This document shows positions 3,562-54,708 of a stretch of 64,000 nt of DNA, one piece after another (the first letter of the stretch is position 1; the number at the start of each line of letters is the position of its first letter). The stretch covers positions 795,241 through 859,240 of the forward strand of contig NZ_LR027848.1 of the NCBI RefSeq assembly GCF_900607235.1, in the 5' to 3' direction. The notes below the pieces were generated by a model that searched no databases, was not told the DNA's origin, and was given only the letters and a program-made list of their open reading frames with translations. The DNA comes from Olivibacter jilunii (GTDB lineage: Bacteria; Bacteroidota; Bacteroidia; Sphingobacteriales; Sphingobacteriaceae). A program made the position numbers and the translations under genes.

Positions 3562-5946
3562 TTACTCATTGCGTAATGACTCAACAGGGTTGGTCAATGC
3601 TGCGCGTATAGTTTGCGACCCAATAACGATCAAGGCAATACCAATGGCAATGCTTCCCGCCAATATAAAAATCCAGATATTGATGGTGGTTTGATATTCA
3701 AAATCATCCAACCATTTATCCATTAAAAACCACATCAATGGAGACGCAACAAGCAAAGCGATTATTACTAATTTCAAGAAATCAAAAGATAACAACTTTA
3801 CGATGGTTGATATATTGGCCCCTAAAACTTTCCGTATGCCGATTTCCCGATATCGCTGTGTGGTATGATAGGACACCAAACCTAACAAGCCCAAGCAGGA
3901 AATAAAAATAGCGAGCATTGCGAAATTGAAAAATAAATTACCGAATCGATTTTCTGAACGATATTGCCTATCAAAAAATTCGTCAGCAAAAAAGTATTCA
4001 AAAGGACGATTCGGAATAATCTCCTGCCATTTTTTTTCAATTGACTTCAAGGCCGTGTTTATATGTTGGCCATCTATTTTGAGTGATACCATACCGCCTC
4101 CGTTTCCTTGCCCATAACGCATGCTGAGGGGCTCTATTTTCGACTGTAGGGATTTAAAATGGAAATCTTTGATCACTCCGATGATTTTACCTTCGCTTCC
4201 CCATTGAGAATATTTTTTACCAATGGCGTCCGCTGGTTTTGCATAACCGAAGAGTTTAACGGCACTTTCATTTAAAATCATAGCTTGCGCAGTATCTGTT
4301 CCAAAGTCGGGCGAAAACATGCGGCCGGCCACCAGTTCAATTTTATATAGGGGAAGGTAATTATAGTCTACAAAATAGACCGGGAGGTTTGCGATCTGCA
4401 TATCGCCTTGCTTGTTCTCAATTTCAGAATAAGCCACCGGGTTCCCACCACCCGGGACCGATCTGGATACAGCGCTAGCTAATACGCCAGGCACGCTGGT
4501 TATTGCGTCCTTTAAGATTCTGCTCTTGGCATCTCCGTTTGTTTGCAAAACCAATACTTGTTCTTTATTGAAGCCCAGATTTTGATTTCGCATAAATGCA
4601 AGTTGACGGTTTACAATCAAGGTGCCTGCAATCAGCGCAATGGAAACCACAAACTGTACCACAACTAAGGTTTTTCTCAATAGTAAACCTTTTGTGTTAG
4701 ACGAAAATTTACCTTTTAACACGGTTACGGGTTTAAAAGAGGATAATACAAGCGCTGGATAAATACCTGCAAGTAACCCGATTAAGCAGGCTAACAAAAA
4801 TAAAACGAGGATGTACACGGGATGGAGAAATATACCTCCACTAATTTCCTTGCCCGCAAGAAAATTAAAATAGGGAATCAAGACCAGACAGAGTAAAATG
4901 GAAATTATAAAAGCTAATAAACAGATTAATACGGATTCACTGATAAATTGCCGGGTAACCTGTATGCGATAGGCACCAACCACTTTTCTGATTCCTACTT
5001 CTTTGGCTCTTTCAACCGCTCTGGCTGTGGAAAGGTTAATAAAATTAATGCAGGCAATAAGTAGGATGAATAGCGCTACAATAGCAAAAACATAAACATT
5101 GTTGATATTGCCGTTTTCAAAACCACCTCGTTTTGAATAAAGATAAACGTCTTTAAGAGGCTCTAAAAAGAGGGTGTAATGCATCTTGGACTGATCCATT
5201 TCCTTACCGACACGGTTAGTTAAAAAAGCGGGAAATTTAGCGGTTAATAAGGAAGGATCAGTATTCGGTTTAAGAAGTAAATAAGAAGTGAAACCAAAAT
5301 TACCCCATTGCTCATCAAATTTAAAATTAGCCATTTTAATCAGGGTGACCATAGAAACAAACACGTCTCCTTTAAACTGCGAATTTTCAGGAATATCTTT
5401 CATCACACCTGTAACTTTGCTGTTGAAACCTTCATCGGTCAGTAGCAAACTTTTACCGATTGGATTTTCCTTTCCAAAATATTTTTTGGCTGCCGATTCG
5501 GATAGAACCACGCTAAAAGGCTCTTTTAATGCCGTTTCCGGGCTTCCTGCTAGTAGCGGAAAATCAAATAGTTGGAAAAGGGAGGAGTCAGCAAAGAATA
5601 CGGCGCTTTCCTGATATTTGATATTATCTTTGCGTATTAACAAACTATTGGGCAGTAAACGCACGTAGTTTTCGATCTCCGGAAGATCTTTAGCGGCATA
5701 CATTGCCATGGGGCCTGACGTGATATTCGCATTGATGGTTTCTGTGGGTGTCTTGACATCGCACACCAAGCGATAAATGCAATCAGCTTTTTCATGATAC
5801 CGGTCGTAACTTCGTTCGAAATTGACGTAAAGCGCAATAAGAAAGCAGGCCGTCATCCCAACTGCCAAGCCACAAATGTTGATAATGGAAAAAGCTTTGG
5901 TTTTCCAGATATTCCGCCAGGCGATTTTTAAATAGTTTTTTATCAT
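3562..5946 (-). CDS. FtsX/MacB-type ABC transporter permease 2
   Basis: This 794-residue permease has the same two-FtsX layout as its neighbours: N-terminal helix (about 20-42), MacB-type periplasmic domain, first FtsX bundle (about 280-430), second periplasmic part, second FtsX bundle (about 670-780). Coupling motifs are RAKEVGIRKVVGA and RYREIGIRKVLGA, and the C-terminus is NPVESLRNE. It starts MIKNYLKIAWRN, the short amphipathic start typical of the subfamily. It is a clear paralogue of the flanking permeases but not a near-identical copy, so the duplication is old. Predicted partner is the shared ATPase at 8756-9436; the substrate is unknown. Confidence 0.93.
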   Translation of the reverse strand: MIKNYLKIAWRNIWKTKAFSIINICGLAVGMTACFLIALYVNFERSYDRYHEKADCIYRLVCDVKTPTETINANITSGPMAMYAAKDLPEIENYVRLLPNSLLIRKDNIKYQESAVFFADSSLFQLFDFPLLAGSPETALKEPFSVVLSESAAKKYFGKENPIGKSLLLTDEGFNSKVTGVMKDIPENSQFKGDVFVSMVTLIKMANFKFDEQWGNFGFTSYLLLKPNTDPSLLTAKFPAFLTNRVGKEMDQSKMHYTLFLEPLKDVYLYSKRGGFENGNINNVYVFAIVALFILLIACINFINLSTARAVERAKEVGIRKVVGAYRIQVTRQFISESVLICLLAFIISILLCLVLIPYFNFLAGKEISGGIFLHPVYILVLFLLACLIGLLAGIYPALVLSSFKPVTVLKGKFSSNTKGLLLRKTLVVVQFVVSIALIAGTLIVNRQLAFMRNQNLGFNKEQVLVLQTNGDAKSRILKDAITSVPGVLASAVSRSVPGGGNPVAYSEIENKQGDMQIANLPVYFVDYNYLPLYKIELVAGRMFSPDFGTDTAQAMILNESAVKLFGYAKPADAIGKKYSQWGSEGKIIGVIKDFHFKSLQSKIEPLSMRYGQGNGGGMVSLKIDGQHINTALKSIEKKWQEIIPNRPFEYFFADEFFDRQYRSENRFGNLFFNFAMLAIFISCLGLLGLVSYHTTQRYREIGIRKVLGANISTIVKLLSFDFLKLVIIALLVASPLMWFLMDKWLDDFEYQTTINIWIFILAGSIAIGIALIVIGSQTIRAALTNPVESLRNE

Positions 5947-5952
5947 GATTTT

Positions 5953-6001
5953 TAGCGTTTAGCTGCCAGCTATCAGGCATAAGCCGTTAGCGCTATAAGC
6001 A
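5953..6001. repeat. AGC-type heptamer-phased intergenic repeat
   Basis: Units TAGCGTT, TAGCTGC, CAGCTAT, CAGGCAT, AAGCCGT, TAGCGCT, ATAAGCA run in perfect 7-bp phase directly upstream of the permease 2 start codon. Confidence 0.6.
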
Positions 6002-6032
6002 GTGATCGAATCTATTTTGTCGTTACTTAGAG

Positions 6033-6152
6033 TTACTGCTCAATTAAAATGACAGCGCTTAAACTAACGGATAGCCCCACTATGTTAATAACAGCATAGC
6101 TTTTGTTGTTAAACAAATTTCTAAATACAGTTTTAAGATAATTCTTAAGCAT
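6033..6152 (-). pseudogene. N-terminal remnant of a fourth FtsX/MacB-type permease
   Basis: Read on the minus strand, an ATG at 6152 opens a 39-codon frame ending in TAA at 6033-6035. The peptide starts MLKNYLKTVFRNLFNNKSYA and continues VINIVGLSVSLSAVILIEQ. This matches the first 36 or so residues of the adjacent permease 3 (MLKNYFKSAFRSLAKSKLYA, then AINIIGLSVSLAASVLLL), including the start of the membrane helix, and then stops. The remaining 740 or so codons are absent: the next 75 bp lead straight into permease 2. It is best read as the stump of a permease gene deleted between paralogues. A functional 39-residue peptide cannot be excluded but is less likely. Confidence 0.8.
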
Positions 6153-6186
6153 AGCTCATTAGCTTTTAGGTGTTAGTATTCAGCCC
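6152..6186. repeat. heptamer-phased repeat abutting the permease remnant
   Basis: Units TAGCTCA, TTAGCTT, TTAGGTG, TTAGTAT, TCAGCCC begin at the first base of the remnant start codon. A weaker 7-bp-phased stretch continues at about 6246-6322 up to the permease 3 stop codon. Confidence 0.5.
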
Positions 6187-6323
6187 CTTGATCTCGATCT
6201 TATCTGTCAAAGGGCCAAAACTTTGTTGTCAGCGTTGTTAATTGACTTATAACGTATAACTGCTGCCTACCGCAAGCAGATAAAACGTATAACTTCAGGA
6301 AAACAGCTAAAAGCCGCAACTCA

Positions 6324-16698: not shown

Positions 16699-16725
16699 AA
16701 CTTGTTTTGTTATGCAGGGATTTAG

Positions 16726-17300
16726 CTTTAAAAAAAGAACTTTTTTCTTAATCAGCTTTTTCTTGATAAAAAGCTGACCAAAACCGAAGAACGAAGTGAT
16801 GAGTTCATGAACACTTTTGAAAGTAAACAAGAGTGAATAAATCAAGGCTATGGATGCTACCTTGCACCTGATGGCAAAGCATCACTGGCGCGGATTGGAG
16901 CCGTTTCACTTCTTCAATCCGCTTGGGTACTACAATATGAACATATGTACAAATGCTTTGCTGCTCGTTGCGTCGGTATCCTCCAAGGCCATTCTTCTCA
17001 CGCACAGGGCTGTATTTAGGGCTGAAAATAAATACGTTCGGTTAAGAGTAAAATCCCTACGTTCTGCTAAAGTATCGCCTAGGAAATTTGCGGTTTGCAC
17101 GTTGATGCACTACCTCTTGTAGCAAAGTTCCAAGCGATGAGTCTTTGGTTACTTTTTTCATCATTTGTTAGTTTTCAATGGCATTCAAGCTACTTCGTGG
17201 TCTGCGGAAGAAAGTGACAAAAAAAGGTTCTTTTAATATAAACACCTTCATCTATATGTTAAAGACGAAATCAACCAACTGGAGTTCATCGAAGGTAACG
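16726..17300. repeat. interspersed structured element, copy A
   Basis: This non-coding stretch of about 575 bp between gcvT and rnhB recurs at 54047-54536 in the same orientation. The best-conserved 192 bp (16850-17041 against 54129-54320) aligns without gaps; a hand count gives 37 differences, about 81% identity. Further shared blocks are GCACTACC at 17107-17114, CTTTTAATATAAACACCTT near 17231, and CGAAGGTAA near 17290. Hairpins at 17074-17138 and 17144-17227 have equivalents in copy B with different but still complementary stems. Edges are approximate. An open frame on the minus strand spans the core in both copies, but substitutions are spread evenly over codon positions, which argues against a protein. 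Confidence 0.8.
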
Positions 17301-17332
17301 CCTGTTTTGTTATGAAGGCGCTCCATAAGCAA

Positions 17333-53992: not shown

Positions 53993-54046
53993 GGTTCCAA
54001 AGGTACGCTTTTATTAAATATAAATTGTAACGTAGAGTAAGTGCGT

Positions 54047-54536
54047 TTAAAAGGAACCTTTTTATTAATCTATTTTTTTAGTATCTGTTCTTTATGCTTG
54101 ATCATAAAGAACCAAACAATCAAGGCTTATGCAGGCTACCTTGCAGCTGATTGCAAAGTATCCATAGCGCGTATTGGAGCCGTTTCACTTCCTCAATCCG
54201 CTTGCATATTGCAAAATGAACAGTCGTGCAAATACTTTGCTGCTCGTTGCGTCGGTATCCTCCAAGGCCGTTTTTCCCAACACACTGGCTATATATAAGG
54301 CTAAAAACTAGTACGTTCGGTTAAAAGTAAAAGCCCATCGTTCTACTAAAGTGCCGCCTCCAAAATTTACAGTCAGCGCTGGGAGGCACTACCGTTCCTG
54401 TAAATTTTGAAGCGGCGAGCTTTCTTTGCTTCTTTTCTTTCGCGGAGAAAGAAAGAAGTTAAAATAAACGTTCTTTTAATATAAACACCTTTATGTTATA
54501 AGCGAAACCGACCAACGAGAATTCACCGAAGGTAAT
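54047..54536. repeat. interspersed structured element, copy B
   Basis: Second copy of the element at 16726-17300, same orientation, about 490 bp. The conserved core is 54129-54320. A hairpin at 54353-54416 has GCCGC/GCGGC and CAAAATTTACAG/CTGTAAATTTTG stems around a loop holding GCACTACC (54386-54393). A second hairpin (54425-54464) pairs CTTCTTTTCTTTC with GAAAGAAAGAAG. CTTTTAATATAAACACCTT at about 54473 and CGAAGGTAA near 54527 close the similarity. Confidence 0.8.
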
Positions 54537-54708
54537 CTCTGGTATTAGACTTAAAGATTGATTTAGACAAAAATGAAATGTATAGCTGAAAAACAAAGCG
54601 AGTAGTTGCTTGTTGGTGAAAAATGAGCGGAACTAGCGGAAAGCTGAGATGGAACAGATCAGGAACAAAAAAAGCAGTACATAGCTAAATTGAATATTTA
54701 TCCTTTAC

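Follow-up and report, generated by a model that had tools for sequence, protein, structure and literature searches.

Two intergenic stretches of Olivibacter jilunii as copies of a probable miniature transposon with ISAs1-type ends and a conserved pseudoknotted RNA

What are the two similar non-coding stretches that lie, in the same orientation, in the 64,000-nucleotide piece of the Olivibacter jilunii genome analysed here (the window; contig NZ_LR027848.1, positions 795,241 to 859,240)? Both are present as described in an earlier, sequence-only reading, and their best ungapped 192-bp alignment has 156 matches and 36 differences (81.3%). The earlier hand count of 37 differences gave the correct identity of 81%, but the best gap-free count is 36. 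When copy 2 was shuffled 20 times and every fourth start of copy 1 was tried, the maximum was 77 matches. The likeness is beyond chance, because a 591-bp query of copy 1 has 81 matches at E ≤ 0.001 in the organism's own genome (6.70 Mb in 21 contigs), at least 31 of which are more than 150 bp long and 72–100% identical. The proposal of a multi-copy family is thus upheld: the genome holds more than the two copies, and relatives were found in congeners and in other genera.

The gaps are large, as had been noted: 699 bp between gcvT and rnhB for copy 1 and 764 bp between scpA and dxs for copy 2. The remark that no transposase lies nearby also agrees with our scan of the eight closest genes: a transposase domain was seen in none of them, and a single one is without any Pfam match. 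No open frame is kept through 30 copies from the same genome. The longest one over the core, of at most 93 codons, switches frame and strand among them, which rules out a protein-coding reading. The limits first proposed, 16726–17300 and 54047–54536, place both copies correctly and are in need of adjustment: copy 1 extends from 16715 to 17304, and in copy 2 the right end can be recognised near 54541, whereas the left end, at about 54044, is uncertain. The parts that we distinguish are as follows.

16705–16714, no strand assigned: left target-site duplication TTTTGTTATG of copy 1, identical at 10 of 10 positions to 17305–17314
16715–17304, minus (strand of the RNA, inferred): whole mobile element, copy 1, 590 bp; empty site in four congeners
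16715–16722, plus: left terminal repeat CAGGGATT (end scan, letters checked)
16753–16776, minus: variable-stem hairpin of copy 1, with loop 16762–16767 (CTTGAT on the plus strand) complementary to 16841–16846, the 3' pseudoknot
16777–16840, no strand assigned: optional module CCGAAGAACG...GTGAATAA between the pseudoknot strands (by eye)
16841–16994, minus: conserved RNA core X1' (model R1) of copy 1, from the core alignment; related to the R2 RNAs
17074–17141, minus: second stem-loop (Y1), with changes on both sides in six stem pairs; stem replaced in other copies
17148–17218, no strand assigned: outer hairpin GTTACTTT...AAAGTGAC, the loop of which contains an inserted module (by eye)
17297–17304, minus: right terminal repeat, AACGCCTG on the plus strand (end scan, letters checked)
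17305–17314, no strand assigned: right target-site duplication TTTTGTTATG (end scan, letters checked)
54044–54541, minus: copy 2, with an uncertain left end and with AATCTCTG as its right end at 54534–54541
54087–54112, minus: pseudoknot hairpin of copy 2, GTTCTTTATG(CTTGAT)CATAAAGAAC, with loop 54097–54102 complementary to 54119–54124
54119–54273, minus: RNA core X1' of copy 2 (core alignment, locus L027)
54274–54419, minus: remainder of copy 2, with a replaced Y1 stem at 54358–54372 and 54398–54412

By eye, the element is built of shells inverted on both sides of the core, in the order terminal arm, hairpin, optional module and core. The optional module is found in some copies only and in others is inverted and lies on the other side (by eye). 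The loop module of the outer hairpin occurs in both orientations (L004, L014 and L020 compared with L001), as if inverted between the stem arms, again by eye.

Comparison with four congeners (G001–G004) indicates that both copies are insertions. Between the matching pieces of gcvT and rnhB there are 7 (G003), 54 (G004), 143 (G002) and 143 (G001) bases, compared with 651–718 in the window; for scpA and dxs the figures are 94 (G003), 84 (G004), 360 (G002) and 170 (G001), compared with 631–806. Both junctions are therefore kept but free of the element in all four genomes. A BLAST comparison of both copies with the eight congener sites gave no match at E ≤ 0.01, so the longer scpA–dxs gap of G002 consists of other DNA. 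As the MAFFT alignment of copy 2 with the congener sites misplaced the left flank, the empty site of copy 2 is based on BLAST and gap lengths. Further empty sites were sought in 16 stretches of 20 kb from G004, which yielded one-sided matches only and no clean site.

Copy 1 ends in CAGGGATT and AACGCCTG and is flanked by the perfect 10-bp direct repeat TTTTGTTATG. A 16-nt direct repeat considered initially was trimmed to the 10 bp outside CAGGG...CCTG, since the letters beyond these are internal to the element at one end or due to chance at the other. A target duplication was also looked for at copy 2 and none was found. An end scan of the loci gave 46 candidate end pairs, many of them spurious. 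In nine elements from three genomes (L001, L018, L014, L029, L033, L041, L152, L158 and L160) the flanking 10-mers match at 10, 9, 8, 8, 8, 8, 8, 8 and 7 of 10 positions at offset 0, and at other offsets from −12 to +12 the match never exceeds 7 of 10, save for L080 (9 of 10 at −1). The other 37 of the 46 pairs, L080 among them, do not exceed 6 of 10 at offset 0, and many of these are false end calls; L016, L061 and L142 lack a duplication (0–4 of 10) in spite of good ends.

In G002 the CAGGG ends are shared and the bodies are different and shorter, which indicates that ends and cargo are separable. The elements concerned there (L142, L152/L154 and L160) are miniature inverted-repeat elements (MITEs) of 159–222 bp whose body, of the type GGATACGCCAC...GCGCATCC, is unrelated. 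We also note an outer shell, TGACTATCGGC...CCTAAAA, outside CAGGG in L008, L013, L023 (twice), L026 and L030, and directly beside the core in L118. In L030 an 11–12-bp direct repeat (TAAAAATTATA) lies outside this shell, which is possibly a second, nested transposon. In other genera of the family, L121–L124 have 43–48-bp matches to the terminal arm AGGGATTACCTTCGGTGAACTCCCGTTGGTCGGTTTCGC, adjoining other palindromic repeats.

The end signature of the element resembles that of the ISAs1 family, for which repeats of 14–22 bp starting with CAGGG and a 10-bp repeat are given in PMC11946415, and one member of which is listed with CAGGG ends and a 10-letter repeat in PMC6305408. The element has CAGGG terminal inverted repeats and a 10-bp duplication, and no transposase gene inside. 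The CAGGG start and the 10-bp target duplication are common to ISAs1 insertion sequences, the MITEs derived from them and the present element, which differs from the insertion sequences in being without a transposase gene and in having a conserved RNA as its body. The ISAs1 transposase (NF033564) is absent from the genome of the window and from G002–G004; it was found in G001 only, one of five genomes of the genus, as a 389-residue frame without a stop (381.6 bits) within a 1238-bp element whose CAGGG ends are 19/20 identical and which has a 10-bp duplication. The repeat of this element, CAGGGCAAACGCATTAAAA, has CAGGG and CGC in common with that of copy 1 while the rest differs, so that the two are only partly similar beyond CAGGG.

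No autonomous partner with a matching full terminal repeat was found in the genome of the window. Four DDE_Tnp_1 transposases are present there, and a script found ends for one of the four; these start with CACTGCCGTCC and CAGAGCTGTCC, not CAGGG, and the duplication is of 9 bp. We infer that ISAs1 was the source of the transposase. The mover is tentatively assigned by its signature, because no ISAs1 transposase was seen in the organism's own assembly, and it is either missing from this assembly or present but unrecognised. The earlier statement that no named family fits holds in so far as no Rfam family reaches its gathering score in the window, but the end signature does point to a known family as the likely source of the transposase. 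REP/BIME elements mobilized by RAYT proteins are like the present element in being dispersed intergenic hairpins in many copies; the element differs from them in its 10-bp duplications and its large multi-helix body, and REP/RAYT was ruled out on finding no match to the Y1 transposase (PF01797) in the genome.

The body of the element was examined with two models: R1 represents the core of the copy 1 type and R2 a second, related RNA type (L061, L025, L030 and others). In an alignment of 41 cores (A4), 98.6% of the cells are paired and five pairs have two-sided changes (one of 500 shuffles was as high). The covariation score is 0.073, compared with 0.057 ± 0.002 for shuffled alignments, none of 500 reaching it; the number of further pair types was reached by 55 of 500 shuffles and so does not stand out. 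The second type gave a stronger result. In 13 sequences (A5), which included two RNA copies from the 20-kb stretches of G004, 13 of 29 pairs have two-sided changes and the score is 0.406, compared with 0.188 when shuffled, with further pair types not above the shuffles (500 of 500 as high). A model search gave 54 matches, 50 of them distinct, and in the alignment of these (A6, fitted to the model) 21 of 29 pairs and 251 cells have two-sided changes, 96.0% of the cells are paired and the score is 0.463, compared with 0.169 ± 0.008 shuffled and at most 0.075 for slid versions. In the shuffle tests on the covariation scores of all three alignments, the compensatory changes exceed what column composition yields. 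The short helix P2, viewed by eye, is CACA/TGTG, CACG/CGTG, CATGG/CCATG, CTAG/CTAG or CCAG/CTGG depending on the copy.

The two RNA types appear to be homologous. L197 is one place at which both models find a match, with 43.8 and 43.4 bits, and R1 spans the second type at full length in L061 (E = 0.0026) and L128 (E = 0.012) and, below significance, in L133 (E = 0.21) and L118 (E = 0.35). In the reverse comparison R2 matches copy 1 at full length on the minus strand, but with an E value of 0.054, and copy 2 with 0.85. L025 and L030 contain RNAs of both types head to head. In L061, L118, L128 and L133 R1 matches the other strand weakly (E = 0.0035–0.082), which suggests the same arrangement there, although these loci are related and not independent.

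No credible match to a catalogued RNA was found for these structures. Rfam 15 has no family at its gathering score in the window, and in ten loci searched at E ≤ 2 every match is below the gathering score and none is credible; a known Rfam RNA was ruled out on this basis. The notable matches below threshold are mir-544 on the Y1 stem (E = 0.9–1.1) and a TPP riboswitch-like match outside the element, at L025:1965–2107, just downstream of a copy (43.8 bits; gathering score 54.3). Pedobacter belongs to the same bacterial family. The Pedo-repair RNA (RF01715) has been described as a candidate structured RNA from that genus (PMC2864571). It was not among the E ≤ 2 matches in the ten loci. Correia, RPE and ERIC elements are MITEs with secondary structure, small and non-coding with inverted ends. 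Compared with these families as generally known, the present element differs in having a fold that is kept by covariation across genera and that includes a pseudoknot.

The RNA ends at its 3' side in CUUGAU, which is followed by a hairpin whose stem varies freely (at least ten different stems) and whose loop is mostly AUCAAG. A hairpin was obtained for 71 of 72 RNA ends, and 53 of the 71 pair at five or more of six positions, although in several rows the script picked a hairpin elsewhere. The two strands of the pseudoknot change together: CUUGAC occurs with GUCAAG in L178, L180, L192, L202 and L208, CUUGAA with UUCAAG in L194 and CUUGG with CCAAG in L004, L011 and L028 (perhaps one event). Partner changes common to related copies may be single events. 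As exceptions, L033 and L044 are changed without compensation, and L007 and L017 have AUCAAA. The earlier reading left it as a mobile or structured family, and it is both: mobile by its empty sites, terminal repeats and 10-bp duplications, and structured by its covariation and pseudoknot.

Whether this fold acts as RNA bears on one rival explanation, in which it would act as single-stranded DNA during replication or transposition, the element being a transposon recognized through its hairpins, in the manner of IS200/IS605 or REP/BIME. Freely varying hairpin stems next to a conserved CTTGAT would suit such an element, and copy 1 by itself folds well as the plus strand, indeed better than as the minus strand (−90.4, z = −2.64, compared with −83.1, z = −1.49). 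Both strands can fold, because the pairing is mostly Watson–Crick. Changes in the pseudoknot are strand-neutral (four G.U and four A.C). In the second type, by contrast, all 50 sequences retain one U.G pair, and wobbles outnumber A.C mismatches by 37 to 16 (A6, whose alignment was fitted to its model; two consensus wobbles excluded), as they do by 21 to 10 in the copy 1 type (A4, helices 6 and 8 left out). The consensus energy of the copy 1 type also favours the minus strand (−48.7, compared with −35.5 for plus). The RNA is thus likely, though not proven, to lie on the minus strand in the window copies. With the Y1 transposase missing from the genome as noted above, and 10-bp duplications not being known from transposons of the IS200/IS605 or REP/BIME class, we consider the single-stranded DNA explanation unlikely.

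A second rival takes the RNA itself as the parasite, SINE-like or tandemly amplifying, with the CAGGG transposon as one vehicle among several. The distribution of the RNA is relevant here. In a DNA comparison over a sample of 60 genomes, the copy 1 core is found in its own genome and in three of the four congeners (weakly in G002), and in none of the remaining 55. One genome each of 84,980 species, a set that possibly does not include the window's own record, was scanned for an exact pattern of 31 bases in which one position was left free; three stretches matched, and they belong to Olivibacter domesticus DSM 18733 and Olivibacter sp. XZL3. Model R2 reaches further under stricter filters, to 13 of 201 genomes and 7 of 25 genera of the family and to 4 of 296 genomes of the phylum, two of these in other families. 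The RNA it describes is abundant in Olivibacter, with at least 14 in the genome of the window and at least 14 in G004, where close clusters of the second type are seen at C10 131–170 kb and 1204–1217 kb. At the RNAs of other genera that were looked at by eye, no CAGGG ends were seen, so the RNA probably predates the vehicle that now carries it. Such RNAs without recognisable CAGGG ends speak for the parasite explanation, as do tandem arrays: L202 (G000:C1:106500–109500) holds at 415–2078 five units of the second type, the last four at 362-bp spacing and, by eye, without CAGGG ends, and L192 (G000:C4:386000–397000) holds at 4976–6192 three equal-scoring units 531 bp apart, each beside short repeats of the TAGTTAAG type. 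Against it, the duplications of copy 1 sit exactly at CAGGG. We regard it as a possibility to be taken seriously, though a minority one. It appears very improbable that the element acts on the adjacent genes as a cis-regulatory RNA, a terminator or an insulator. The element is structured, and among 30 copies of the genome, with neighbouring genes taken from a simple ORF call, 12 lie in divergent, 17 in tandem and only 1 in convergent gaps; the excess in divergent gaps may in part come from the greater length of gaps there. Where the gap is a tandem one, the RNA has the direction of the genes nine times and the opposite direction eight times, and this even orientation speaks against a cis-regulator, as does the absence of both window copies from the same sites in four congeners.

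In our view, the most consistent interpretation, to which we would assign a probability of about 0.72, is that the element is a MITE with ISAs1-type ends, moved in trans and carrying a conserved pseudoknotted RNA. Each copy would be a non-autonomous DNA transposon of miniature size. The CAGGGATT... ends would be recognized by an ISAs1-type DDE transposase, provided in trans either today or formerly, which would insert the element between genes with a 10-bp duplication. The body of the element would be a conserved folded RNA, apparently two head to head in some copies; its helices have GGC/GCC closures, and at the 3' end CUUGAU pairs with the AUCAAG hairpin loop in an H-type pseudoknot. Mobility and covarying structure are established by the data above. 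The RNA would be transcribed, and its fold would help the element to spread, or to be tolerated by the host, and would not regulate neighbouring genes. A bolder idea, and rather a long shot, is a new class of mobile element in which a pseudoknotted RNA aids its own spread while the DNA ends are exchangeable between transposon families; the RNA could then be, for example, a guide or scaffold for some nuclease or transposase.

No description of the element was found in the open-licence papers searched. A covarying RNA with a 3' pseudoknot, for which the sequences scanned gave no match in Rfam 15 at curated scores, lies here in dozens of copies inside recently mobile DNA. It is a manageable system for finding out what an RNA fold is kept for in a small transposon, be it mobility, tolerance by the host or a role as a passenger gene.
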